NCBI GenBank assembly: GCA_027345185.1
Contig: DAHWIK010000022.1
Coordinates: forward strand, 1 to 43,586
DNA from: Microcaldota archaeon
GTDB taxonomy: Archaea; Micrarchaeota; Micrarchaeia; Micrarchaeales; CABMGC01
Direction: 5' to 3'
DNA length: 43,586 nucleotides
The translations under genes and the position numbers were made by a program. The notes beneath the pieces were generated by a model. That model was not told the DNA's origin. It ran no database searches and saw nothing but the letters and a program-made list of their open reading frames with translations. Below are positions 1 to 41,112 of this stretch, in pieces (the stretch's first letter is position 1; every line of letters starts with the position of its first letter).

Positions 1-863
1 AATGGGGAGCAGATAGAACCGTGGACGACAAACCTAGAAGTGGTAAACCATCAAAACTGACACCAGAAGATGACAAAGAAATCAAAGACCTTATAGACAA
101 CAAGAAACCCAAAGATTTCGGGATAAACGCTGCAACTTGGACGACCAGGGAACTGCGAGAATATTTTCTGAAGTCCCATAATAAGGATATTGCTGAAGAA
201 ACCATCAGAGTGCACCTTCGCAAGACAGGTGCAAAGTATGTTAAATCGCAGTTAAGATACAAAGAGGCAGACATGAATAAACAGGTGAAATTTGCCCAAA
301 ATTTTCTCACTCTCTCAACAGAATCCGATTTCACCAAAATAGTATTTATCGACGAGATGTCTGTATCTACATCTGCACATAACGGTTATGGATGGACGTA
401 CAATCAGAGACTTGTGGTTGATGCGCCTCAAAAAGGGGTAGAAAGGGCAAACTACTTCGGCGCGGTGGAGGTCTCAGAAGGCGAGATAATCGAGACTGTA
501 AGGAAGAGCGCAAAGACGCCGTCATTCCTCTTGCTACTTCATAAAATAGACGATAGATATCCTAACGACAAAGTGCTTATATTGATGGATAACAGCGCAG
601 TCCATCACGATAAACGAGTAGCACGGTTCTTCGGTAAAAAGGATCATATGAAACCTCTGTTCCTACCTCCGTATTCACCAGAAATCAATCCAGAGGAATA
701 TGTCCATAATTATTTGAGGAACAAAACACTGAACAACTGCAATTTTATGAGCATAAAACAGATAGGTATAGTGATTGCAAACTTTATCAGGCGGATGGAC
801 CAGAAAATGATAAAGAGTATTGCGCCATTGGCACCTATTGAGGCATTACTTTCGGTCAAATGA
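1..863 (+). CDS. IS630-family DDE transposase, 5' end truncated by the window edge
   Basis: The frame is open to the window edge (WGADRTVDDKPRSGKPSKLT...). DDE-like blocks: VFIDEMSV, LILMDNSAVHHDK, FLPPYSPEINPEEYVHNYLR. Confidence 0.88.
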   Translation, partial: WGADRTVDDKPRSGKPSKLTPEDDKEIKDLIDNKKPKDFGINAATWTTRELREYFLKSHNKDIAEETIRVHLRKTGAKYVKSQLRYKEADMNKQVKFAQNFLTLSTESDFTKIVFIDEMSVSTSAHNGYGWTYNQRLVVDAPQKGVERANYFGAVEVSEGEIIETVRKSAKTPSFLLLLHKIDDRYPNDKVLILMDNSAVHHDKRVARFFGKKDHMKPLFLPPYSPEINPEEYVHNYLRNKTLNNCNFMSIKQIGIVIANFIRRMDQKMIKSIAPLAPIEALLSVK

Positions 864-5313: not shown

Positions 5314-5874
5314 ATGCTAAAATCAGCGCCAAAAAAGTATGGGCCTGCAAATGAACCAGAATTGATGGGCTATCTGGCCGGTGAGCTTACCGAAAAGGCG
5401 ATTAGCATGAAGCTTTCTGCTATTTTAGGCTGCAGGTATACGCTGATTAATGGGCATGCGCCTTTCACCGCACCCAACTTCGGAGAATACAGAGGTATGA
5501 CCCCTAAGAATCTGGACGTAGTCCAAATAGATGCCAGGACTGGCAATGTGGCTGCCATATATGAGGTTAAGAGCACGACAACAGATAAGGTAGAGTTTAA
5601 TGTGAACGGCCAGTCTGGTATATTCATGGCCCATGCCGCAGAGCTGGGAATACCTACATTCCTTGTTGTGGTGCGGATGGACCGCAGTATCAGCGAGGAT
5701 GTTCTGAGAAAGGAGCTATCAACAGGCAAAGTGGTTATAAACCCAGAAGCATATCTGTCAGAAGTCAACCATCTGTTGAAAACTTCACGTGTAGAGCTAT
5801 ATGACTCGGCTCGGTTTATGGTTGAAGGCGGAAAGTTTCTGGTTTCTGGAGTCCCGAAGTCATTGGAGTCCTGA
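5314..5874 (+). CDS. Putative PD-(D/E)xK-like nuclease-fold protein
   Basis: NLDVVQIDARTGNVAAIYEVKSTTT resembles a D...ExK core; otherwise unknown. Confidence 0.5.
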   Translation: MLKSAPKKYGPANEPELMGYLAGELTEKAISMKLSAILGCRYTLINGHAPFTAPNFGEYRGMTPKNLDVVQIDARTGNVAAIYEVKSTTTDKVEFNVNGQSGIFMAHAAELGIPTFLVVVRMDRSISEDVLRKELSTGKVVINPEAYLSEVNHLLKTSRVELYDSARFMVEGGKFLVSGVPKSLES

Positions 5875-5876
5875 CA

Positions 5877-6305
5877 TTATTGAACTATCTCTACATTTCC
5901 GTCAATTAAATGAGCAAGCATAAATCCTGAGTCAGGAGTGCAAGAAAGAACCTGCCGCTGTATCTGGTCTCTGCAGTTGCTTAATATTTTTATCTTGGTT
6001 TTCCTGTTTTTAAGGATATTATTCTGTTCGGACAGGTTTGCATGATAAATAATGCCAAATTCCGATGAGCGGTCTTTTATCTGAACTGCTCCGCTGGCAT
6101 CCACTCCGTTAGTTATAAGTAATTTCAACAGCTCTTCTTCTGATGCAAGTTCATTCTGGCTGCTGATCCTCTCAGAACCGGTAGCTTCGGCCGACTTTAT
6201 CGTTATCTTTGGAACATTGATTCGTATTCTCTTTGCAAATATCAGGAATCCAATGGCAAATAGTATCTCTGGCACACTAACTAGGAGCTGGTATGCGAAG
6301 TTCAT
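5877..6305 (-). CDS. Small membrane-anchored protein, last gene of the T4SS-like operon
   Basis: N-terminal TM helix (LLVSVPEILFAIGFLIFA). Its start overlaps the stop of the upstream gene. Confidence 0.55.
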   Translation of the reverse strand: MNFAYQLLVSVPEILFAIGFLIFAKRIRINVPKITIKSAEATGSERISSQNELASEEELLKLLITNGVDASGAVQIKDRSSEFGIIYHANLSEQNNILKNRKTKIKILSNCRDQIQRQVLSCTPDSGFMLAHLIDGNVEIVQ

Positions 6306-6976
6306 GCCCTCACTATCTCAAGATTCCCGTTCCTCAAGCTTATGAACCTGTATCCCCTGCTTCTCAGCTCGTTTATTGCCTCTGCAATGGTCTCTTGGGT
6401 CACTCCAAGCTCCCTTGATATCGCTGTATGGTCGAACCCGTTGCCATATTTGCAGAGCATTAGGGTTGAAACAGTAGAAATAAGTCTTGACTTGAGCTCA
6501 TTTGAGTATTTTTCAAGCCTATTCCTCTGTCCAAGTAGTTCTATGACGCGTTTTGAAAGTATGATATCGGCTCTGCGGTTGAAATTGCTGGCCCTGTTCT
6601 CGTGAATTAATATATCGCTGTTTGAAAGGAGATACGTCAGGTATGGAAGCAGGCCCCGTAAATCTATCTCATAGTCCTCTGACAATGCAATGGAAACGCT
6701 CATCAGCCTGAGCACCGATTCTTTCATGAAATATGTTGGTGAAGATGTTGAATTGGTGGTCATTGTTATCCTGTCCTTCTCCAATTCAAGCACATGGAAC
6801 CTGTCGGCCTGCGTTTCATACCCTATAAGGTAAGTTATCCTGGTCCCTGTGGCCACTTGCTTGATGGCTGGATAGCAGGATATCCTTGATTTTACACTTG
6901 GCATGCTGGTTTTAATTCTTGCCTCAAGTCTTATCCTGCTTGAGAAATAGATCTTTCCCTTGTTTTTCGTATTCAT
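6302..6976 (-). CDS. Winged-helix/HTH protein encoded in the T4SS-like operon
   Basis: C-terminal HTH: DHTAISRELGVTQETIAEAINELRSRGYRFISLRNGNLEIVRA. 4-nt overlap with the ATPase gene. Confidence 0.6.
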   Translation of the reverse strand: MNTKNKGKIYFSSRIRLEARIKTSMPSVKSRISCYPAIKQVATGTRITYLIGYETQADRFHVLELEKDRITMTTNSTSSPTYFMKESVLRLMSVSIALSEDYEIDLRGLLPYLTYLLSNSDILIHENRASNFNRRADIILSKRVIELLGQRNRLEKYSNELKSRLISTVSTLMLCKYGNGFDHTAISRELGVTQETIAEAINELRSRGYRFISLRNGNLEIVRA

Positions 6977-8070
6977 GCACCAATATTGCTTATTGCTATG
7001 GAGAAGGCGTCGGCTATGCTTGAGTTGCTGAATCCGATTTTCTGTAGTCTCAGCAGTATGCCGCGCCTGTCTGCACCGTTTTCAATCAGTTTCGCCACTA
7101 GGTCAGGTAGAGTTATGCAGTTTTCCTTGACCTTATCCTTTACATGAACCAATTTACCCCTTCCGCACAGTGAAGCAACCATTTCGTCGAATTCTGTCAC
7201 GCTTATTCCAATCTCCATTCCAGCACCTGTTCTAATTCTTATCGTATTGGTGTCCCGTATCCCTATAACTTTGCGTATGGTGAATGCTGACCTTACACCG
7301 GATTTGTGAAGCTGAATTACAAAGCAGCTGCCAAGGTCAAGATCTTGTATGCTTTTGAGCTCCTTCTCCGACAGGTTGAAGTTTTTTGACAGAGTCTCAA
7401 GGCTTTTGATGTTTGTTGTCTTGAATATGAAGATCGTGGCCATGTTTGATAGGATGTTTGCGCTTGTGTCGTGCAGGAGCTGGGATGACGTTATCAGGCC
7501 AACGCCATATTTTCTGCCCTCCCTTATGATTGTCTCGAGCCCCTTGTTCTTTTCTATGAGCTTCCATGCCTCGTCGATCAGTATCATCAGCCTGTTCCTC
7601 TGCTTGTAGCCTCTCTTTCTCATCAGTTCTGCGGCCTTGTCGAAAATCTCTGATGCCTTTGCCACCTTTTCACTTTCTGATAGCCCATGCAGGTCTATGT
7701 GCATCACGCCTTGGCCCTCTCCAAAAAGCCCTTCCAGACCTGGTGAATTTATGACCTGAAGGCTTGATGCGGCTTCAAGGTATTCTCCTGTAAAATCGAT
7801 AAGCAGCACGTTTGAGCTTGAAAACATGTACATGCGTGCGAAAAGGCTTTTTGCAAGATAGGTCTTTCCTCCACCGGTCATTCCACATATCAATATGTGC
7901 GGATTCAGCAGGTTTCTGAAATCTATGAATGCGGGCATGTTTAAATGGCTGGTATTTCCCAGCAGGGTCCCATCTTCAGAGCTTCTGGCGCTGGTTTCCA
8001 GGTCCGGCTCTGGAGATATTGGCATATATATCAAATTGGCAACGCTTTCTGAGCTTATCAGGTCTAGCAA
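6973..8070 (-). CDS. VirB4/TraC/HerA-like conjugation-type ATPase (C-terminal motor half)
   Basis: Walker A ICGMTGGGKTYLAKS, LLIDFTGEY, Walker B RLMILIDEAWKLI, GVGLITSSQ. TTG start directly after an in-frame TGA. Confidence 0.85.
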   Translation of the reverse strand: MLDLISSESVANLIYMPISPEPDLETSARSSEDGTLLGNTSHLNMPAFIDFRNLLNPHILICGMTGGGKTYLAKSLFARMYMFSSSNVLLIDFTGEYLEAASSLQVINSPGLEGLFGEGQGVMHIDLHGLSESEKVAKASEIFDKAAELMRKRGYKQRNRLMILIDEAWKLIEKNKGLETIIREGRKYGVGLITSSQLLHDTSANILSNMATIFIFKTTNIKSLETLSKNFNLSEKELKSIQDLDLGSCFVIQLHKSGVRSAFTIRKVIGIRDTNTIRIRTGAGMEIGISVTEFDEMVASLCGRGKLVHVKDKVKENCITLPDLVAKLIENGADRRGILLRLQKIGFSNSSIADAFSIAISNIGA

Positions 8071-8793
8071 TCAAACACCGCTATAGTCCAGGAGAGCCTC
8101 CCCCCTAAGGATATCGTAATCGAGCCCAAGGGACGCTGAGAACTTGTTGGCGAGTATCTCTATGTTTTTGGCTGAATAGGCTTCAGCATCGTTCTGGTCA
8201 TCCGAGGTGCTTATGGACTTTATCCTTATTACGAATTGGAAGGATTTGCCAGAGGATGCAAGGCTTGATATATCGCCGTTTATTAGGTCTATCTGGCGCT
8301 TCAGGAAGCTCGCTTTGTCATAGGACTTCTCCCCTATCCTTGAGAGGGCTATTTCCTTCATCCTCAGCTTCGCCCTGAGATTATCCAATATCTTTGTCTT
8401 GTCTGCCTCTGACAGCTCAACCGAGAACTCGAAACGCTCGTTCAGGCTGTCGAGAAGATCCTTCAATGAGTGGCTCTTCACCTCGGAGCCGGCCCTTGGC
8501 TTCAGCAGCGCTATGGATATTGCCCTGAATAATTCGCCCTCCTTGCGCGATATTGAAACCAGATTCGTGCTTATCCTGTAATTTCCGGAGAGCATGACTA
8601 TCTTTGATCTTTTAATCAGGAGATTATTGATTATGTGACCTGAATGCAGCATAATGACGGCAAAAAGCAGGAGCAGGGCTGAGGCAAGCAGTATTGCAGG
8701 ATTGGAAAGGATAAGAGCGGTGATAAAAATCGCCGCAGATAGCGCATATGCCATGTAGAAATTGTTCTTGTTGTCTTGATTTGCGGTTTGCAT
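8071..8793 (-). CDS. Membrane protein resembling a PrgI/VirB4 N-terminal domain
   Basis: Two hydrophobic N-terminal helices followed by a soluble alpha/beta region; contiguous and in frame with the downstream ATPase ORF. Confidence 0.55.
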   Translation of the reverse strand: MQTANQDNKNNFYMAYALSAAIFITALILSNPAILLASALLLLFAVIMLHSGHIINNLLIKRSKIVMLSGNYRISTNLVSISRKEGELFRAISIALLKPRAGSEVKSHSLKDLLDSLNERFEFSVELSEADKTKILDNLRAKLRMKEIALSRIGEKSYDKASFLKRQIDLINGDISSLASSGKSFQFVIRIKSISTSDDQNDAEAYSAKNIEILANKFSASLGLDYDILRGEALLDYSGV

Positions 8794-8794
8794 G

Positions 8795-9823
8795 CTAAAT
8801 CATCTCGAATATGTTGAATGTCATCTCTGAGCCCAGCAAGGCTGCTGTCTCCTTTATGGATATTGATGTTATGACGACGCTGAATGCTGGGAGTATAAAG
8901 GCCGCCATGATGAAGTATGAGATGTAGTCCATTATGGCGCTGATCAGGTTGGATACCTGCCCGGAGATTGATGAAAGTAAGGAGGAGATTCCAGACATTA
9001 TTGAACCGGTGTCATTTGAATTGGGATCCAAGCCTACGACATATGAGTTCAGTCCGGAAGCGGAGCTCGACAGGCTGACTATCGTCGAGTTGCTCAGGCT
9101 TGCCTGGTATGAGCTTATTATCGAGGCGTTCAGCACGTATGTCAGCGGAAACACCACATAAAGTCCGACGACTGACCCGAGCAGAAACCCTCCAATCTGC
9201 CTGGTCGGATAAAATGTCCTGAGTATGAGCCCAAGAGGCAGTATGACCGTGGTTGCTGAGGCGGCTATTGCCGTGAGTATGGATGACTGCACAAGCACGC
9301 TTATCGATACTGTCGTGAGTGTCTTTATGAAGAACTGTATCTGGTTCAGGACAGGCTGGAGGACCTGAGTCAGTGAAAAACTTACTACAATGATACTTAT
9401 CTTCAGGGAGGAGAGAAGGCCCAGTACAGTATTCAGCGATAGCAAGCTTATTATCAGGCCGGTTGACTGGGACAGGATCGATGCATGTTGCACCCCATCC
9501 AGGAAATAGCCTCCTCCGGAAAGGTAGCCGCTCGCAAAGCAGATCGCAGCGTTTGAACTGAGATATGTTGGGCATTGCACGGATGTACTATTGAATGTGG
9601 CGGAATTTATTATCGATGTTATTATTCCTGATGGCAGGAAGAGCGCTGCCATTCCGCCAATCAGCAGCCCGTTGACCAGGCACTGGTTAAGCTCATCCCT
9701 TCCAAACTCCTTCAGCCTCCTGTTGCTTGTTGCATAGCCGATGCCTACCGAAATACCTCCTATCGAGATCATTATTGCAAGGACGCTGACCGCAATGGAG
9801 AATCCGTATCCGCCTGAGAGCAT
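8795..9823 (-). CDS. Polytopic membrane protein, VirB6/TrbL/CedA-like
   Basis: Multiple TM segments across 342 aa; sits between the pilin-like and VirB4-like genes. Confidence 0.6.
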   Translation of the reverse strand: MLSGGYGFSIAVSVLAIMISIGGISVGIGYATSNRRLKEFGRDELNQCLVNGLLIGGMAALFLPSGIITSIINSATFNSTSVQCPTYLSSNAAICFASGYLSGGGYFLDGVQHASILSQSTGLIISLLSLNTVLGLLSSLKISIIVVSFSLTQVLQPVLNQIQFFIKTLTTVSISVLVQSSILTAIAASATTVILPLGLILRTFYPTRQIGGFLLGSVVGLYVVFPLTYVLNASIISSYQASLSNSTIVSLSSSASGLNSYVVGLDPNSNDTGSIMSGISSLLSSISGQVSNLISAIMDYISYFIMAAFILPAFSVVITSISIKETAALLGSEMTFNIFEMI

Positions 9824-9829
9824 TTTAGA

Positions 9830-10210
9830 TCACGTTACGTTTGCTGGTGTGCTATTTGACAGCAGGTGTGTCGATGCCAGTGCAAAGCTGTTCGCTGTAA
9901 CTGAGAGGACTGCTACAACCACAGCGCCCATTATCATGTCACCCGCAGTTGTATGGAAGCTCGCGCGCTGATGCGCAGGGAAGAGTTGACCTATCGCGTA
10001 AAGCAGGCCTGCTATTATGAACAGTATTGCACTCAGTATGGGACCTATGTGGGTCAGGAGGTCCTGTACGTAGGTTAGGGTCGAGATTATGTCGAGTGTT
10101 GCGAAACTCTGGGCGCCTACAAGCCTAGGCAGCAATATGGCAGCAGCACAGATTGACAGTATCGTTTTCATCTTGGAGTAGTCGTATTTTCCCAGATCCA
10201 TTCGTATCAT
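9830..10210 (-). CDS. VirB2/CedA1-like pilin candidate: signal peptide plus two TM helices
   Basis: KTILSICAAAILLPRLVGAQ signal peptide, then two hydrophobic helices separated by a short polar loop (AHQRASFHTTAGD). The likely start is the internal Met at about 10171. Confidence 0.6.
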   Translation of the reverse strand: MIRMDLGKYDYSKMKTILSICAAAILLPRLVGAQSFATLDIISTLTYVQDLLTHIGPILSAILFIIAGLLYAIGQLFPAHQRASFHTTAGDMIMGAVVVAVLSVTANSFALASTHLLSNSTPANVT

Positions 10211-10218
10211 CTTTTACT

Positions 10219-10240
10219 TAAGTATATGATTATATACTTA
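10219..10240. promoter_or_regulatory. Inverted repeat TAAGTATAT-GATT-ATATACTTA upstream of the pilin-like operon
   Basis: Perfect 9-bp arms with a 4-nt spacer, just upstream of the operon's first gene. Confidence 0.45.
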
Positions 10241-10454
10241 GATAAATATTTAAGGCTTGCTGTTTGGATAAGCATGCGGTTTGTGCTGGTTTTGGCCTGG
10301 CAAGCACCAGTATATTGGCCTTTATAGCAGATCTAGAAAGCAATACAACACATTGTCGAGTAAGAAGTGTAGTATTATAATCCTGTCTTGCTATAATCAT
10401 CAATCGTAGCTTTGTTAGATTCGACATCTACTTGCTACGGAAATGAAGACAAGA

Positions 10455-10486: not shown

Positions 10487-10605
10487 ATGTCAAACGGCCA
10501 TAGGAGCGGGGAAACGCCCGAACTCATTCCGAACTCGGAAGCTAAGACCGCTTACGATATGAAATACTGCGCTTATGCGTGGGAAAGCATATTGCTGTTT
10601 GGCAT
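10487..10605 (+). rRNA. rrf: 5S ribosomal RNA
   Basis: Core GGCCATAGGAGCGGGGAAACGCCCGAACTCATTCCGAACTCGGAAGCTAAG. Helix I closes perfectly (ATGTCAAAC / GTTTGGCAT). T-tract follows. Confidence 0.96.
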
Positions 10606-24496: not shown

Positions 24497-25516
24497 ATGC
24501 GCATAATAAGATTGAACGGAGTTACCAACTTCCTGAAACTTGAGCCGGACAACATAGACGACCTCTACCTTCTTGCAATGATAATATCGAAGAATGACGT
24601 GGTCGAGGCGCACAGCACCCGCAGGTTCAGGGCCCACGAAGGCGACAAGGGAGAGCAGAAGGACGTTACCATAAGGGTGAATGTTGAGAGGAGCGAGATA
24701 GACAAAAATGCAGGCATGCTGAGGGTTTCTGGAAAGATAGTATACGGGCACCCTGAGGAATATGTGACTATGGGGAGCTACCACACGCTCAACATAGCCG
24801 CAAGGGACATAATAGATGTACAGAAGCCCGAGTGGAAGGGCTATATAATTAAGCGGCTAAAGCAGGCAGTTGCCGATTCTAAGAAGCCGAGGCTGGGAGT
24901 CATAGTGCTTGATGATGAGAAGGCGCTTGTCTCCTACATAAAAGGCTATGGGATTGAGCCCGTGTCAGAGCTTTACAGCCGGCTGAGCAAGAGGATGAAG
25001 ATGAAGGACTTTGAGGCCAGGAAGGAGGAGTACTTCGGGGAGGTTGTAGCTGCTGTGGCGAATATGTCAGTTGATATAGTTGTTATAGCTGGACCGGGCT
25101 TTACAAAGGACGACATAAAGAAGTACATAGAAGATAAGGGAAAGGAGATAAAGAAGCAACTAGTCTACGCCTCAGCAAGCGATGCGGAAAGGTCTGGAAT
25201 ACGAGAGGTCATGCAGAGCACTGCAGTCACAAAGGTCCTGGAAAACGAACATGTCAAGAGGGAATTCGGATACATAAACAGGCTGCTGCTCGAGGTGCGC
25301 GCCGGAGTGGCTTCCTATGGTACGGATAGGCTGCTCGACTCGCTGGACAGGAAGGCAGTTTCCGCAGTGCTTGTCAATGACGACATAATAAACGATGAAA
25401 GGGTCAAGCTGGTGCTCGACAAGGCGGACAAGATGGGCATAAAGATAGAGATATTCAATTCGGATGACGATGCAGGACGGCAGCTGAAGAACTTCTCAGG
25501 CATAGCCGCAGTATAA
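24497..25516 (+). CDS. pelA: Pelota (mRNA surveillance factor aPelota)
   Basis: MRIIRLNGVTNFLKLEPDNIDDLYLLAMIISKNDVVEAHSTRRF, IVIAGPGFTKDDIKKYI. Confidence 0.95.
   Translation: MRIIRLNGVTNFLKLEPDNIDDLYLLAMIISKNDVVEAHSTRRFRAHEGDKGEQKDVTIRVNVERSEIDKNAGMLRVSGKIVYGHPEEYVTMGSYHTLNIAARDIIDVQKPEWKGYIIKRLKQAVADSKKPRLGVIVLDDEKALVSYIKGYGIEPVSELYSRLSKRMKMKDFEARKEEYFGEVVAAVANMSVDIVVIAGPGFTKDDIKKYIEDKGKEIKKQLVYASASDAERSGIREVMQSTAVTKVLENEHVKREFGYINRLLLEVRAGVASYGTDRLLDSLDRKAVSAVLVNDDIINDERVKLVLDKADKMGIKIEIFNSDDDAGRQLKNFSGIAAV
25310..25516 (+). repeat. Copy 1 of a 207-bp direct repeat (pelA 3' end)
   Basis: Matches 26968-27174 with 14 mismatches by eye, all in the 5' part; the final ~95 bp are identical. 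Confidence 0.95.
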
Positions 25517-26789: not shown

Positions 26790-26967
26790 AATTCTAATTG
26801 TGGTTCTATATTTATATACTTTTCTACTTTTATTAACTTATAATTTAAGATTAGTACAACTAAAATTAACTTCAAATTTAGAATTAGTTTGGTATGTCTG
26901 TGCTTCTACTCTGTTGCACCAATTCCGATTATGGCGTCAGACGCGGCTCGGGAACGGCTAGGAGACA

Positions 26968-27174
26968 GCTTCCTACGGAACCGAAATGCTGCTCGCATCG
27001 TTGGACAGGAAGGCAGTTTCCGCAGTGCTTGTCAATGATGACATAATAAACGATGAACGAGTCAAGCATGTGCTCGACAAGGCAGACAAGATGGGCATAA
27101 AGATAGAGATATTCAATTCGGATGACGATGCAGGACGGCAGCTGAAGAACTTCTCAGGCATAGCCGCAGTATAA
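26968..27174 (+). pseudogene. Duplicated 3' remnant of pelA (copy 2 of the direct repeat)
   Basis: MLLASLDRKAVSAVLVNDDIINDERVKHVLDKADKMGIKIEIFNSDDDAGRQLKNFSGIAAV, nearly identical to the Pelota C-terminus. Confidence 0.93.
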
Positions 27175-27176
27175 GG

Positions 27177-30100
27177 TCAGGCTACAGATCCGAAGCTTAC
27201 TGAAGGCATTATCCCGCTTGGCGGGTAGTCGCGGGTGAGAAGCCACTGGAGATTTGCTATTGTAGATGCTGCTGTGGATGAATATATGTAGAAACCTAAA
27301 TATCCAGAAGTTAATGCTGTTGTTGAAACAGTTTCGGTAGTTCCGTCAAATGTTGCCGATAATCCACTTGGAGTTTGAATAAAACTATCAATTGAGGTAT
27401 ATTGAGATACATAGTTTAAATTACCATCAGCAATTGTTGTGCTACCTTCAATAATGCCTGGAGCTTCATTAGCAAGATTAAGTATTCTTGCCCAATAATT
27501 TGTTCCGACACCTCCCGTATTTTGGCTTGTTGATGTGCTGCTATCCAAGACTAAGCCCCATTGCTCGTTACTATTTGTGTCTGTGCTGACGCCATAATAA
27601 GTTTCGTCAGCTTCAAGTATTACAGGGGATGAAGTCTGTGAGGTTGTAAGGATATAAAAAGGTGTGCCTGTTGTGGTTGCTGCTACGCTTAATCCATTAT
27701 TTTGTGTAAGTGTCACTCCAGATATAGTAGAAATACGGCTATCTAATGTAGTTCCAGCAAAATTATAATAATTACTGAACACGCTCGCACCGTTGTCGTA
27801 TTCTGCATATGTTGAGCTGAGCTGCGGGGCTTCGCCAGTAGGACCAGAAGCAGACATCACGCTTGATGACATGAAGTTCATGTACAACGTAAGTGTGTTG
27901 CTTCCATAAGTGCCAGATATGCTTACCGGTATGCTAAGCCATACATTTGTAGTAGTAGATGCGTTGTACGCGCCGCTCTCGATCCATGCCTGGACAGGCA
28001 CCCCGCCCTGATATGCTGGAGAGCCTATTGTGAATTCAATGTTTGACCACTGAGAATTTATATAGGCAGCATAAGTGCTGGTAGGTACGGTAATCAGCTC
28101 CTGAAAGCCAGAAGGCAGTTGATTCTGAGTTGGATTGGTTATTGTTATGGGGACATATGCTTGTCCAAGCGGCGGATTAAGTGGTGGTGGAGGAGTATAG
28201 GTATTGCTGCCTGTGCCGAAGCTCACTGAAGGCATCACCCCGTTTGGAGGGTAGGCGCGGGTGCGGACGTATTGGAAGGTAGTAGAACCTGCAATATCAT
28301 CAATAAATAAGTCTATATATGCACTTCCGATTGTTGGCTGGGTGCTGGTGCCTCCCTGTTGAGTAGTTATATAATTCCAAAATGCTTCGTTGCTTCCAGT
28401 AGCTTGCCAACTTCCGCTCACTATTCCGGGGGTTGTTATTGCTGTACCCACATAGCCGGTGGGTACACCGTTGCTGATAGTTCTTATCTTTAATTTGCCA
28501 CCATTATAACCAAATCCAACGGTATTGATATTGCCCCATCCATCAGAACCCGATGTGCCTAATGATACTGCCCACTGAATATTCTGGTCTGCGCCTCCAC
28601 CTGATGTAGTTTGCAATGCTTCTACTATCTGCCCAACAGGATTATAGGTAGAGGTTGAATAGACGTGTTCATAGTAGCCTGCACCTCCTGTTGTTATAGT
28701 TAGGGTTATGCCATTTGAAACGGTGTAGGAGCCACCTGTGCCAGCAAGTTGATTGTTAAATGTCGAGGGCAATGTTGTTCCAGCGAAGCTCCAGTACTTC
28801 GTAAATACGCTCGCCCCGTTGTCATACTGGGCGTATGTGCTGCTGAGCTGCGGAGCCTCTCCTGTGGGGCCTGATGCAGACATGACGTTTGCAGCCATCA
28901 TGTCCATGTATATCGTGAGGCTGCCCTGCGCAGGCAGGCCGTTAGGGAGGTTGACCCAGACATTGGTCGCTGAAGCAGTATTGCTGGGGTTGCTCTCCAC
29001 CCAAGCCTGCAGTATTGTTCCAGTTGCCGACTTTCCAGTTGTAAATTCCACATTTGACCATTGTGAGTTTATGTACTGCGAGTATGTGCTGGATGGCACT
29101 GTTATGAGCTGCTGGAAGGGCGCAGGAGTGGCGCTTGCCTGCGAGTTGGTCAGCGTTATCGGCACATAGTAAAGTACCATCGTGTTGGTTGGGGTGAGAG
29201 CGCCCACTGTAGATGTCGTTTGGGCGTATGCCCTAGCGCGCATCCAGTTTATGTTTTCGTTCCACGGATAGCTTGATAAAGTGTCGCCAATCAAACCGAG
29301 ATACAAGTTTGTGGATGAGGAGAGGGGATTGACAGAGGGAGTGCCAGAATATCCTCCCGAGTATAGCTGCGGAGATATGTATCCAGTGTATGATGAAGCA
29401 TCACTGCCAAAATAAGTAGTGCTGCCATAATTCCAATTTGTGTTTGCAGTACCCTGCGGATTAAGATTGACACTGTGAGTTCCTCCTGAAAGATAGTCAT
29501 TAGTGAAATAGGTGGAGCCGAAACCCATATCTACAGATTGGGCATTGGTAATGCTGGTCGCTGTCGGATTGTTTACAATAGAAACATAACCCATATCCGA
29601 AGGGTTGTTCAAGTTCTGTGCATTGGTTTCTGCAATAATGGCCTCATTGGGCATTGCAGTAGCAAAAGACATTCCGTACCAAGAAACTGAACCGTATCCT
29701 GCAATGTTTATCGCAGATACGGTGCCAGACGCCGAACCAGGATAGGGAACACCTGTTGATTGTGATATTGTTATCCCGGAAGGTGCATTAAAGTTTGATA
29801 GGGAGGTGTCCCCATTGAAGTAAGATAAAAATACCAACGCGCCGTTGTCGTATTGGCCGTACGTTGGGCTGAGCTGCGGGGCCTCACCCGTATAGCTTGT
29901 GGTTGAAGACATAATGTTTGATGGCATAAAGTTCATGTACACAGTTACCGAACTGCTTGCAGGTATGGCTTTGGTCAGTTTGAGCCATACTACGGTAGAT
30001 GTGGCGGTGTTGGATGCGCCGCTCTCAACCCAAGCGTATATAGGGGTGCCTCCCGAGTATGCCGGTGAGTTGTAGGTGAACTCAACGTTCTGCCAACCGG

Positions 30101-30812
30101 AGTTTATCTCGTTTGCGCCATCATATGAAAAGCTCGGTATTGTTACCATAGCCTGGTACGGCGTTGGTGTCGGCGAGGTTCCGGAATTTGATATTGTTAT
30201 AGGAACGTAGTATGCAGGTACTGTTGTGGTTGACATGGAAGTCGGCGGAGGGCTTGCCGAGACTGTTGTTGCTGGCTGCTGGTTTGCATATATTATGAAT
30301 GTGCCCGTATAGTGCTCGGTCAGGAAACCACACTGGGCTGAAAATTTGCTTACTCCTGAGTTGCATGACTGAACGAATACGACGAATTGCCCCACGACCT
30401 CCTTCCCCACATGCACTGCGCCGTTGGGTATTGCTGCAGAGCATAGGGTGTTTCCCCCGGGGAAGACTATTGTATTTCCTGCAGGATAGGCGGTGTCATT
30501 GGTGCATGTGCCGTAGATCGGCGGACCGCTTACACCGCTTATAATCACATTCACACCGATCACATTGGCTGGCGAGCTTCCTGAATTTGACAGGTATATG
30601 AAGACGTTTGCGGTGTTGGTAATGGTGTTGGAATAGTATTGTATGTTGTAGCAGTCTATGCTTCCGTATGCGTTGCATGTAGATGGCTCTATCTGGGATG
30701 TCGGGGTGGCGAAATAGAATATTGTGATAAGCACTATTGCAGCCAAGGCTATCATGAATCCATAAGTGGTAAGCATCTCGAGCGCTGATTGAAGCCTTTT
30801 ATTGCTATTCAT
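27177..30812 (-). CDS. Large surface adhesin-like protein with three DUF2341-type repeats and a pilin-like N-terminus
   Basis: Start MNSNKRLQSALEMLTTYGFMIALAAIVLITIFYF. Three repeats of YVPITI..., QW.NVEF, YM.FM...VMS, TGEAPQLS.TY.QYDNGA.VF. Confidence 0.85.
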   Translation of the reverse strand: MNSNKRLQSALEMLTTYGFMIALAAIVLITIFYFATPTSQIEPSTCNAYGSIDCYNIQYYSNTITNTANVFIYLSNSGSSPANVIGVNVIISGVSGPPIYGTCTNDTAYPAGNTIVFPGGNTLCSAAIPNGAVHVGKEVVGQFVVFVQSCNSGVSKFSAQCGFLTEHYTGTFIIYANQQPATTVSASPPPTSMSTTTVPAYYVPITISNSGTSPTPTPYQAMVTIPSFSYDGANEINSGWQNVEFTYNSPAYSGGTPIYAWVESGASNTATSTVVWLKLTKAIPASSSVTVYMNFMPSNIMSSTTSYTGEAPQLSPTYGQYDNGALVFLSYFNGDTSLSNFNAPSGITISQSTGVPYPGSASGTVSAINIAGYGSVSWYGMSFATAMPNEAIIAETNAQNLNNPSDMGYVSIVNNPTATSITNAQSVDMGFGSTYFTNDYLSGGTHSVNLNPQGTANTNWNYGSTTYFGSDASSYTGYISPQLYSGGYSGTPSVNPLSSSTNLYLGLIGDTLSSYPWNENINWMRARAYAQTTSTVGALTPTNTMVLYYVPITLTNSQASATPAPFQQLITVPSSTYSQYINSQWSNVEFTTGKSATGTILQAWVESNPSNTASATNVWVNLPNGLPAQGSLTIYMDMMAANVMSASGPTGEAPQLSSTYAQYDNGASVFTKYWSFAGTTLPSTFNNQLAGTGGSYTVSNGITLTITTGGAGYYEHVYSTSTYNPVGQIVEALQTTSGGGADQNIQWAVSLGTSGSDGWGNINTVGFGYNGGKLKIRTISNGVPTGYVGTAITTPGIVSGSWQATGSNEAFWNYITTQQGGTSTQPTIGSAYIDLFIDDIAGSTTFQYVRTRAYPPNGVMPSVSFGTGSNTYTPPPPLNPPLGQAYVPITITNPTQNQLPSGFQELITVPTSTYAAYINSQWSNIEFTIGSPAYQGGVPVQAWIESGAYNASTTTNVWLSIPVSISGTYGSNTLTLYMNFMSSSVMSASGPTGEAPQLSSTYAEYDNGASVFSNYYNFAGTTLDSRISTISGVTLTQNNGLSVAATTTGTPFYILTTSQTSSPVILEADETYYGVSTDTNSNEQWGLVLDSSTSTSQNTGGVGTNYWARILNLANEAPGIIEGSTTIADGNLNYVSQYTSIDSFIQTPSGLSATFDGTTETVSTTALTSGYLGFYIYSSTAASTIANLQWLLTRDYPPSGIMPSVSFGSVA

Positions 30813-30863
30813 CCAATTAGCCACTATATAATGGACGGGATTAAATTTAATTAAGTTGCGTGT

Positions 30864-31664
30864 ATGTACAACTTTGTCGGATTGCGAAGCAAAAAGAGGC
30901 TTGGTCAGGTATTCCTTGTTAACGAAAAGGTGGCGAGCATTGAGGCAGCACACGCCACTGGAAAGACTGTCCTTGAGATAGGACCTGGACCTGGAATCCT
31001 TACACGCGCGCTGTGCAATGAGGCAAGGAAGGTCATTGCAGTTGAAAAGGACTTCAGGATCTACAGCATGCTTAAGCATGAACGGATAGCAAGGAACCTT
31101 GTGCTTATAAACAAGGACTTCCTTGATGCCACAGACTCTGAGATAGGCCTGAACAAGATAGACATAGTCATAGCGAACATACCGTATTACCTGTCAAGCA
31201 GCGTCATAGGATGGCTTTCAGAGAAGCACATGCAGGCCGTGCTATGCCTGCAGAAGGAGTTCGTCGAGCATATGCTTGCACCTCCCAACACGCGCAGCTA
31301 CTCAAAGCTTAGCGTTATCACGGCCCTGCTTTTCAGGGTCACAAAGATAATAAGCGTGCCTAAGGGAAACTTCAGGCCCATGCCCAAAGTCGACTCTGTA
31401 GTAATATATATTAAGCCCATAAGGGAACCGCTGGCTGAAAGGGAAGCAGAGCTTATAGGGCTGATCATGCAGCACAAAAAGAAGACTGTCAGGAACGCCA
31501 TAATTGACTCCAGGTCTCGATTTAATTTTGGCAGGGATGAGCTGGCCAGGATTGCGGAGAAGGTATCGCATAGCGAGCAGCGGGTGTTCAAGCTGGAGCC
31601 TGCGGAGATATTCAAGATCGCAAAAGAGCTTGAATCATTTCTAGATAACTACAATAAATATTAG
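30864..31664 (+). CDS. ksgA: rRNA adenine dimethyltransferase KsgA/Dim1
   Basis: SKKRLGQVFLVNEKV, VLEIGPGPGILTRAL, IVIANIPYYLSSSVI. Confidence 0.95.
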   Translation: MYNFVGLRSKKRLGQVFLVNEKVASIEAAHATGKTVLEIGPGPGILTRALCNEARKVIAVEKDFRIYSMLKHERIARNLVLINKDFLDATDSEIGLNKIDIVIANIPYYLSSSVIGWLSEKHMQAVLCLQKEFVEHMLAPPNTRSYSKLSVITALLFRVTKIISVPKGNFRPMPKVDSVVIYIKPIREPLAEREAELIGLIMQHKKKTVRNAIIDSRSRFNFGRDELARIAEKVSHSEQRVFKLEPAEIFKIAKELESFLDNYNKY

Positions 31665-31672
31665 TCCTAGTT

Positions 31673-32437
31673 TCAAGATTGCTTGATTGCACCTATCACA
31701 TATTCCCCTATTGCTTTAAAATCAGGTACGGTCTTCATCAGGACCGATAATTCGCTGTCCCACACATCTTTCAGCGATTTGACATTTCTTACGAATTCGG
31801 ACTTCGAGAATTTTTTATTATGATATTCCAGCTTTTTATTTATATATTCGGCATTGATTGATGCGCCCTTATGCAAGAGAAAGTAGAGGTCATACAGGTC
31901 TCTTGCCTTTTGCCTAGTAAGAATGGTGCGCATTTTCTCGGCAAGCATCTCGTCAAGGGACATGACGTTTGAAAAATACGGACTTATGTCTTTGAATATT
32001 GGGGTGATGAGCAAAACGTCCGGCTTCTTGATTATTTCCTCCCTGGTGCTTATCTCAACCAGTATTGTTTGTGTGGATTGGGGCCTCACGAATAGAGGGC
32101 CTTCGATTTTGAGCTTGTACGTTACGCAGATGTCCTTTATCTCTTTTTTATATTCAGACCTGTAGAAACTATTTATACCATTAAGACCACGCTCTATGCG
32201 TTCAAATACGCCGCTGCCGGCCTCCTTAATCTGATCTGAATTGGCGGTAAAGTCCAAGTCCTCTGAGAATCTGTTCAGAGCGTATGCCTTCTGGAGAGCA
32301 GTACCTCCCTTGAAAACAAGTTCGCTTGATACATTGGCATATATTTGGAACAAAACTATGTGCTGCAGGTAGTCCTTCTCTACCTGATATCTGTTGTACT
32401 GACCCACATACTCCAATATCTCGTCTCTTCTAAGCAT
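31673..32437 (-). CDS. AbiEii-type nucleotidyltransferase toxin
   Basis: VFKGGTALQKAYALNRFSEDLDFTA, LDEMLAEKMRTILTRQKARDLYDLYFLL. Confidence 0.92.
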   Translation of the reverse strand: MLRRDEILEYVGQYNRYQVEKDYLQHIVLFQIYANVSSELVFKGGTALQKAYALNRFSEDLDFTANSDQIKEAGSGVFERIERGLNGINSFYRSEYKKEIKDICVTYKLKIEGPLFVRPQSTQTILVEISTREEIIKKPDVLLITPIFKDISPYFSNVMSLDEMLAEKMRTILTRQKARDLYDLYFLLHKGASINAEYINKKLEYHNKKFSKSEFVRNVKSLKDVWDSELSVLMKTVPDFKAIGEYVIGAIKQS

Positions 32438-33101
32438 GTTTTACCCTCCATTTTGTATTTATTTTTTTTCCTGGTGAAATAACTGCGTATCGCGATGACC
32501 GGTGTGTGATGAGGCTACTTGCATCAAAGCCGGAAGATTCAAGCAAAAAACCAAGCTTGTTTATCAGGATCTTGGAATCCATGTTTATAGCATAGCTCTT
32601 AAGCTTTTCGATATCTGCATCTTCGATATTCTTGAAAGCCTCGGCAACATAAGAGTAATCCAAACCTTCATACAAGGAGTCTATGATGGCCTTCTCTGGG
32701 CATGCTACGTTGGCGCCATCGTCATTTTTATAACCGAAAACACGGTTCCTAGAAAATTTTATGAATTTTATTGAATATCCGTCAAAATTGATCACTTTGT
32801 GCTGCCTCGTGGCTACCACGTATACGACATTGGGCATCTGCGTGACAAGGTTATAATAACGGAGTGCGGATAGAAGACTTACGTATGACGGGTATATTAT
32901 ATTTGATGCAATGACGTAGATGCTTGCCTCCTTGAGGCAGTACTTGCCGCGCTCTATGCGCTTAAACATCTTATTTTTTGATAATAACAGGGAGAGGTAT
33001 TTTCTTGGTTTGCCAGTAATTTTGGCAATATCTTTTAGAGTGAACACGCTTTTGTTATAATTTTGCAGTATCTCTGCAATTTCCAAGCCCCTCATGAACA
33101 T
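32430..33101 (-). CDS. AbiEi-type HTH antitoxin
   Basis: N-terminal wHTH (FTLKDIAKITGKPRKYLSLLLSKNKMFKRIERGKYCL), overlaps the AbiEii ORF, YVVATRQHKVINFDGYSIKFIKF, CPEKAIIDSLY. Confidence 0.87.
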   Translation of the reverse strand: MFMRGLEIAEILQNYNKSVFTLKDIAKITGKPRKYLSLLLSKNKMFKRIERGKYCLKEASIYVIASNIIYPSYVSLLSALRYYNLVTQMPNVVYVVATRQHKVINFDGYSIKFIKFSRNRVFGYKNDDGANVACPEKAIIDSLYEGLDYSYVAEAFKNIEDADIEKLKSYAINMDSKILINKLGFLLESSGFDASSLITHRSSRYAVISPGKKINTKWRVKHA

Positions 33102-39730: not shown

Positions 39731-41112
39731 GACATCCCCCAACGACTGAAGGTCGTTGGCTTCCAATGGTGCTTTTTGATTGGTCATCTTGAAACACCAA
39801 GTGTAGTTCCTGATTCAACGATCCTGCTTGCAGACTCCTTTTGAGGCGCAGAGGCAGAATCTCCGGAGGCGTGACTTCCCCCTTGTCCAGAGGTAGCTCT
39901 TTTGAGTATGTTCTTTGAGGCATTCAAGTCCCTGTCAATATTCAATCCGCATTTTCCGCAGTTGAATGTCCTTTCTGACAAAGGCATTTCCTGAACGTTT
40001 CCGCATTCACTGCACGTCTTCGACGTATTCTGGGGGTTCACTCCCACTGCCACGCAACCAGCACTCTCAGCCTTGTATTGCAGCATTTGGGCGAAATTTC
40101 CCCAAGAGGATTCGCTGATGGACTTCGCAAGATGGCGATTCCTCACCATGTTTGCGATCCTGAGTTCCTCGTATGCAATGAATGAGTATGAATGGACAAG
40201 ATAGTATGAGAGTTTATGCAGATTGTCTTCCCTGATTCGTGAAATATGCTCCGAATATCTGGCGAACCTGAATGCTGACTTCTTTCGATTCTTTGAGCCT
40301 TTTTTCCTCCTTGAAATCGACTTCTGTAATCTACGGAGTGTTTTGCGTTCTTTATTTGAGACGTCCTTATTTTGAAGGACTTTGCCGTCAGAAAGAGCTG
40401 CGTAGTTTGTGATCCCCAAGTCTATTCCAACGGCTTCCTTTCCGTTCGTGAATGGGACTATGTCTTCCTTTTCAACTGAGATTGTGACATACCATTCCCC
40501 TGATTTGGTCTTCTTTACAGAGAGGGTTTTTATTTTCCCTTCAATTTCCCTGTGGTTCACGAAGTTTATCATGCCTACTTTTGATAGGCCAATTCTCTTC
40601 CTCTCTATTTTGAAGCCTGACTGGGGATATGTCAATGACGATACGAAATTCCTGAAACGCGGGAATCCGACTTTTACTTTCTTTCCCCCGCGTTTTTCCT
40701 TTGCCCTCCTGAAAAAGTTTTTGTACGCTTTTGAGAGCCTGTCAGGAACATTCTGCAATACCTGAGAATAGACTCCATTGTATTCTGAATGTTCTTTCTT
40801 GAATTTTGTAACCCATTTAACCATGTCATATTTTGTGAAGGTCTTTCCAGTATCCCTGAAATGCTCCTTTGCCTTTTCGAGGAGATGATTGTAGAGTTCT
40901 TTGCAGAGAAGCATCTGTCGGTTTAGAATAGCCTTTTGCTCCTTTGAAGGATATGCCCTGAATTTATATGTCTTTTTCAAGATGACCATTTTTATTACGC
41001 CGTTAAAATTTATATGTATTTTGTTGTCGCATTCGCTTTCGTCTATAAGAACTCGTCCGTAAAGACGAGTTCTCATACCAACATCCCACCTCTGAAGGAG
41101 GCGGGTTTTCCC
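39731..41112 (-). mobile_element. IS200/IS605-family tnpB-only element
   Basis: tnpB plus matching end hairpins: CCAACGAC-TGAAG-GTCGTTGG at 39739-39759 and CCCACCTC-TGAAG-GAGGCGGG at 41085-41105, each preceded by ACATCCC. No tnpA in the window. Boundaries approximate. Confidence 0.8.
39784..40989 (-). CDS. tnpB: TnpB RNA-guided nuclease
   Basis: AVGIDLGITNYAALSDG, FIAYEELRIANM, CSECGNVQ...FNCGKCGLNIDRDLNASKNIL: RuvC residues and zinc finger intact. Confidence 0.94.
   Translation of the reverse strand: MVILKKTYKFRAYPSKEQKAILNRQMLLCKELYNHLLEKAKEHFRDTGKTFTKYDMVKWVTKFKKEHSEYNGVYSQVLQNVPDRLSKAYKNFFRRAKEKRGGKKVKVGFPRFRNFVSSLTYPQSGFKIERKRIGLSKVGMINFVNHREIEGKIKTLSVKKTKSGEWYVTISVEKEDIVPFTNGKEAVGIDLGITNYAALSDGKVLQNKDVSNKERKTLRRLQKSISRRKKGSKNRKKSAFRFARYSEHISRIREDNLHKLSYYLVHSYSFIAYEELRIANMVRNRHLAKSISESSWGNFAQMLQYKAESAGCVAVGVNPQNTSKTCSECGNVQEMPLSERTFNCGKCGLNIDRDLNASKNILKRATSGQGGSHASGDSASAPQKESASRIVESGTTLGVSR

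Follow-up and report, generated by a model that had tools for sequence, protein, structure and literature searches.

The locus analysed here lies on contig DAHWIK010000022.1 of the Microcaldota archaeon assembly GCA_027345185.1 (positions 1 to 43,586; the whole stretch of 43,586 nucleotides (nt) is called the window). This contig, C32 in our numbering, belongs to a genome of 0.92 Mb that is 83% complete. Between positions 5877 and 10210 it carries a compact operon of six open reading frames (ORFs) with components of a type IV secretion system (T4SS). All six ORFs lie on the minus strand, as proposed in the initial annotation, and transcription would run from 10210 to 5877. In this order the genes are separated by gaps of 6, 1 and 0 nt, followed by two 4-nt overlaps. 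The promoter elements and genes, with protein lengths in amino acids (aa) and predicted transmembrane (TM) helices, are:

10243-10252, minus strand: TATA-like box TAAATATTTA, read from the sequence; a similar AT-rich box is found at the same position in relatives
10233-10246, no strand: second, weaker palindrome copy with 2 mismatches, 20 base pairs (bp) upstream of the first
10213-10226, no strand: operator-like palindrome TTTACTTAAGTATA, conserved across genera, 12 nt ahead of the likely start codon
9830-10210, minus strand: pilin candidate of the VirB2/TrbC/T4SS_pilin type, 126 aa, signal peptide and two TM helices
8795-9823, minus strand: polytopic membrane protein in the VirB6/CedA position, 342 aa, six TM helices, putative pore
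8071-8793, minus strand: predicted two-TM hairpin (VirB3-like position) with a VirB4 N-terminal domain (NTD), 240 aa
6973-8070, minus strand: HerA/VirB4-type ATPase without the VirB4 NTD, 365 aa, TTG start
6302-6976, minus strand: C-terminal winged helix-turn-helix protein, a conserved component, 224 aa
5877-6305, minus strand: small one-TM protein, last operon gene within the window, 142 aa

Since the pilins of relatives align from the ATG at 10201, this codon is probably the true pilin start (123 aa). A 5S rRNA gene (10490-10603, plus strand) lies upstream of the operon, and the operon end abuts a convergent 186-aa ORF (5314-5874).

The pilin candidate matched the Pfam family TrbC with an E-value (E) of 3.6e-5, just below the Pfam cut-off. 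Within its family TrbC was detected in 25 of 36 members and T4SS_pilin in 23 of 36 (best E 5e-7), which supports the VirB2-like identity proposed before; the nearest PDB sequence was TrwL/VirB2 of R388, with a non-significant E of 0.3. The 342-aa protein has two highly conserved cysteines, and its AlphaFold2 model reached a pLDDT of 80. Its topology, gene position and company suggest that it may form the membrane pore, in the role of VirB6. Homology between the pilin and the 342-aa protein, as reported for CedA1 and CedA, was rejected (hhalign probability 0.7).

The 240-aa protein yielded a confident AlphaFold2 model (pLDDT 88.9). Its 11 best PDB fold matches were all R388 T4SS inner-membrane entries with TrwK/VirB4 (probability 0.96-1.00, best E 3.9e-4); the whole-query TM-scores were modest (0.35-0.42), as expected of a domain match. 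According to this model the protein consists of a two-TM hairpin at the place of VirB3 and a VirB4 NTD. The initial annotation had described a two-TM membrane protein; the hairpin was retained and the identity corrected to a VirB4 NTD on a separate chain. The 365-aa ATPase matched DUF87 (1.4e-13) and AAA_10 (7e-12), and its family profile detected HerA (1.7e-23) and VirB4 (4e-11) in the PDB, in agreement with its earlier assignment as a VirB4/HerA-type ATPase. Against the CedB equivalog model (NCBIfam NF041017, S. acidocaldarius control positive) it scored 52.7 bits as a protein (E 2.8e-14) and 31 bits in the genome search; a strict CedB label, which requires 700 bits, was therefore rejected on score. 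Because this ATPase has a HerA/VirB4 core without the NTD, while the 240-aa protein folds like the VirB4 NTD, VirB4 appears to be split across two polypeptides. For the 224-aa protein, helix-turn-helix models gave E 0.003-0.008, below their cut-offs; a diverged homologue is present in a paralogous locus on contig C47 (see below).

To assess conservation, the ATPase was used as query across 98 genomes, and 40 relative loci were re-annotated with gene calls and iterative profiles. The order pilin, 342-aa protein, 240-aa protein, ATPase was kept in 39 of the 40 loci, the contig of the 40th beginning within the operon, and for this reason the operon is not a chance arrangement. The winged-helix protein was found in 39/40 loci and the one-TM protein was recognisable in 31/40. 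The core order was also present in most of the best 80 loci of a genome-collection scan, on named contigs from Micrarchaeota or so labelled (a few are labelled Marsarchaeota), including the complete ARM-1 genome; the gene order is thus kept across Candidatus Micrarchaeota. A loss of gene order in relatives had been named beforehand as grounds for abandoning the DNA-transfer interpretation; instead, the order proved to be conserved.

Downstream of the six genes, 22 of the 40 loci carry a second HerA-family ATPase of 697-812 aa (about 735 aa), usually after small proteins with two or three TM helices, and the operons of relatives reach up to nine genes. This second ATPase was detected in 71/98 genomes; considered as a possible VirD4-type coupling ATPase, it matches TrwB_AAD_bind (8.6e-7) in addition to DUF87 but is without predicted TM helices. 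In the source genome it is encoded on contig C4 (3698-5896), preceded by small membrane proteins, and in two genomes of the same genus (G001 and G009) it is still attached to the operon. Because the second ATPase follows the operon in relatives and sits on another contig here, the window contains one portion of a split operon and not the minimal system that the initial annotation had assumed. The region C4:2949-5896, with a small 90-aa ORF ahead of the small membrane proteins and the ATPase, is the detached operon tail. Between the VirB4-NTD protein and the second ATPase no relationship was seen (hhalign probability 0.2).

The window-type ATPase occurs in 73 genomes of the set, and in 36 of the 49 relatives that are at least 90% complete (hand tally); the locus is conserved in most of two families. 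As ATPase identity to the window copy tracks the identity of the housekeeping protein aRF1 (Spearman 0.88, 56 genomes), inheritance is, judged by this divergence, mainly vertical. The relaxase family PF03432, the sole relaxase family searched, was found in 0/98 genomes with a positive Lactococcus control. At the sensitivity used, no copies were found in plasmid collections, and the second ATPase was not found in viral contigs. For these reasons the operon is a chromosomal system, and its earlier description as chromosomal and non-integrative stands as far as PF03432 and vertical divergence can show.

The operon promoter contains the palindrome TWTACTTAAGTAWA between the TATA-like box and the start codon. 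Among relatives, the second palindrome copy lies 19-20 bp from the first in 27 of the 34 promoters that have one. The exact palindrome occurs at two sites of the source genome, the window operon and C28:6908-6921, and the latter is directly upstream of a type IV pilus operon. This operon encodes a T2SSE ATPase (2e-19), two four-TM proteins in the TadC position, one of which matches T2SSF weakly and below threshold, and one protein whose match to a class III signal peptide is slightly below cut-off. Thus the T4SS-type operon and one type IV pilus operon share a promoter element. Allowing up to 2 mismatches, the element was present in 37/40 T4SS-operon and 27/30 pilus-operon promoters, compared to 5/279 control promoters (Fisher 2e-39 and 2e-30, respectively, both overstated since related genomes are not independent). 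A search of the 98 genomes revealed 51 exact sites, against 2 for a reversed-pattern control. Hand classification assigned 18 sites to the T4SS operon, 16 to the pilus ATPase, 1 to a detached second ATPase (G055) and 2 to diverged pilus-ATPase genes, one of them beside the second ATPase (37/51 together); 2 lie at TnpB genes and 12 elsewhere. These promoters suggest co-regulation of the two operons via the palindrome.

The two TnpB-like genes (L262 and L270 in G006 and G007) have the exact palindrome 10 nt upstream, and these sites are probably mobile or due to chance. At L277 (G010:C34) and on G004:C26, the second HerA-family ATPase has a diverged pilus-type (T2SSE) ATPase gene as its direct neighbour, a physical link between the pilus and T4SS gene sets. 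At C28:6430-11998 the pilus operon is accompanied by a divergent, highly conserved gene for a 109-aa winged-helix-like protein (C28:6430-6759). A match to this gene was found in 27/30 pilus loci, with 67-94% identity among relatives and no Pfam match for the protein, which we consider the best candidate for the regulator; the 224-aa protein of the T4SS operon is a further candidate. That pilus and T4SS operons always co-occur was rejected, as the pilus operon is present in genomes in which the T4SS operon was not found.

A paralogous locus was detected in the source genome at C47:4936-22214. It encodes six polytopic proteins in a row, all relatives of the 342-aa family (hhalign 93-98%; hidden Markov model (HMM) E 1e-9 to 1e-17), two VirB4-NTD-like proteins (HMM 1e-13 and 4e-20), a 501-aa ATPase together with a 98-aa protein homologous to the ATPase C-terminus, a 755-aa basic protein and a 246-aa homologue of the winged-helix protein. 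An 816-aa surface-type protein is also encoded there. With its many tandem genes in the VirB6 position, the locus is reminiscent of Rickettsiales, in which virB6 is duplicated. Loci of this type are present in other Micrarchaeota, including G059, where the window-type operon was not found. No operator within 2 mismatches was detected in the stretches of the C47 locus that were examined.

The closest parallel among known systems is found in Sulfolobales, where DNA damage co-induces Ups type IV pili and the Ced importer, with Orc1-2 at ANTTTC elements (PMC9738581, PMC11868833), and where CedB and CedD each bear part of the VirB4 NTD (PMC11868833). Like the micrarchaeal operon, the Ced system (CedA, CedA1, CedA2, CedB, CedD, CedE) combines a pilin, a polytopic protein and a HerA/VirB4 ATPase, has two HerA-family ATPases and a VirB4 NTD spread over proteins, is chromosomal without a relaxase and has a promoter element in common with a type IV pilus operon (PMC11868833, PMC9738581). 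In contrast to Ced, the micrarchaeal NTD is on its own polypeptide with a TM hairpin, winged-helix and one-TM genes are conserved, and the element is palindromic instead of ANTTTC. The proteins are also not sequence members of Ced, as the CedB score indicates, and DNA import is a putative function here. The Ted system of Thermoproteales (TedA, TedB, TedC) likewise has a VirB2 pilin with signal peptide and proteins of VirB6 position and VirB4 type in a chromosomal cluster (PMC9905601); MinD/ParA-type and HerA genes are common in its loci, whereas here VirB4 is split and a second large ATPase is present. In the Sulfolobus conjugative plasmid pNOB8, a 630-aa DUF87 protein aligns with the 365-aa ATPase (hhalign probability 98.6) and a 1025-aa DUF87 protein with the second ATPase (94.5); however, the pilin and membrane protein align weakly (probability about 3), and the plasmid is mobile with an integrase.

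Two further systems come from small symbionts. The Patescibacteria T4SS (related to MPF-FATA) is also chromosomal, relaxase-less and conserved in tiny episymbionts, but it is bacterial with a single-chain VirB4, and no pilus-shared operator is reported in the accessible part of the source (PMC12102498). Nanohaloarchaea, which like Micrarchaeota belong to DPANN, have VirB4-family ATPases near giant adhesins, proposed for host interaction; there the ATPase domain is fused to an Ig-like adhesin, and that work describes no operon of pilin, membrane and NTD genes (PMC10266531). In the open-licence literature we found no description of a T4SS or Ced-like system in Micrarchaeota, or of a DPANN VirB4 system of this type. 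VirB3 and VirB8 homologues were stated to be absent in archaea in the 2025 Ced paper (PMC11868833); here, a predicted hairpin in VirB3 position is fused to the VirB4 NTD and lies apart from the ATPase.

Taken together, we regard a chromosomal, domesticated T4SS machine for regulated DNA exchange or uptake as the probable identity of the operon, with some reservation; it would be comparable to the Ced and Ted DNA-exchange systems of Crenarchaeota, with an architecture of its own. It is the best reading because the pairing with a pilus resembles that in Sulfolobales, PF03432 is absent, inheritance appears vertical and plasmid or viral copies were not found. Such a machine would have a conjugative-type pilus or conduit assembled from the pilin, a membrane pore made of the 342-aa protein, and a VirB4 motor composed of a membrane-anchored NTD subunit and a separate ATPase subunit; the second HerA-family ATPase, here on contig C4, would be its final component. 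The T4SS operon and the pilus operon would be switched together by a regulator on the paired palindrome, so that cells would first attach via pili and then move DNA.

Several points weigh against this interpretation. Sequence alone cannot separate import from export, and the DNA substrate, like the direction of transfer, the hetero-assembly of the split VirB4 and the identity of the regulator, is what we infer. The 342-aa protein gave nothing significant in comparisons with the PDB (fold and sequence), Pfam, NCBIfam and the pNOB8 proteins, and its homology to VirB6 is undetectable by sequence or fold. The initial annotation had named a missing fold match of the 126-aa and 342-aa proteins as grounds for refutation; the pilin withstands this through its sequence family, whereas the 342-aa protein does not, and its VirB6-like label is not supported by these comparisons. 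In the source genome the genes of the detached second ATPase have no operator within 2 mismatches, unlike in G055. G037 and G059 have kept the pilus operon with its operator, and the T4SS operon was not found in them, so the pairing is not obligatory. The lack of a relaxase applies to PF03432, the one family searched.

This lack also fits the main rival, a T4SS that carries no DNA but acts towards an archaeal host as a symbiosis apparatus, either for protein delivery or as a contact conduit; it would work like the relaxase-less T4SS of Patescibacteria. Cultivated Micrarchaeota are host-dependent (PMC11291902), pili serve attachment too, and relaxase-less chromosomal T4SSs occur widely among epibiotic Patescibacteria, where Saccharimonadia depend on them for epibiotic growth (PMC12102498). 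However, no effector candidates were identified, the promoter pairing with pili parallels Ups/Ced, and the ATPases belong to the HerA family of DNA translocases, although VirB4 serves protein export too. We consider host delivery unlikely, yet deserving of serious weight.

Natural transformation, in which the pilus operon would capture free DNA and the T4SS-like pore import it independently of cell-cell contact, is clearly improbable: the operator common to the type IV pilus operon is reminiscent of the pairing of pili and uptake in competent bacteria, and ComB of H. pylori is a T4SS serving uptake (PMC11868833), but the conjugative-type pilin suggests cell-cell contact and not capture of free DNA. 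The components are of conjugation type and the ATPases align with those of pNOB8, as would be expected of a remnant of an integrative conjugative element and not a host system. Given the vertical divergence, the conservation in most of two families, the lack of PF03432 and the failure to find plasmid copies or, for the second ATPase, viral ones, such a remnant was already disfavoured and is very improbable.

A broader version of the DNA-exchange interpretation is possible, though we hold it tentatively: a phylum-wide, vertically inherited regulon, with the split-VirB4 machine and the pilus under the paired palindrome plus the paralogous C47 locus, might move DNA among ectosymbionts or with Thermoplasmatales hosts. 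For the micrarchaeon Mia14, two systems of type IV pili were described, as was an exchange of genes with Thermoplasmatales for which pili or conjugative elements were speculated to be the route (PMC5498576). If true, the regulon would account for the reported gene flow between Micrarchaeota and Thermoplasmatales. Through the shared operator, pilus genes are seen to be paired with DNA-transfer-type genes in a lineage outside Crenarchaeota; the operator also allows the function to be tested directly in co-cultures that already exist, and it bears on DNA exchange between DPANN symbionts and their hosts.

Other features of the window include a DDE transposase (21-863, plus strand), an IS605-type TnpB (39784-41076, minus strand) and a toxin-antitoxin pair of the AbiEii/AbiEi type (31673-33101, minus strand). 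A 1300-aa ORF with a DUF2341 match (27177-31079, minus strand) probably encodes a surface protein. The full aRF1 gene (24497-25516) is accompanied by a partial duplicate (26962-27171, plus strand), which comprises the C-terminal 70 residues and is 91% identical to the full gene.

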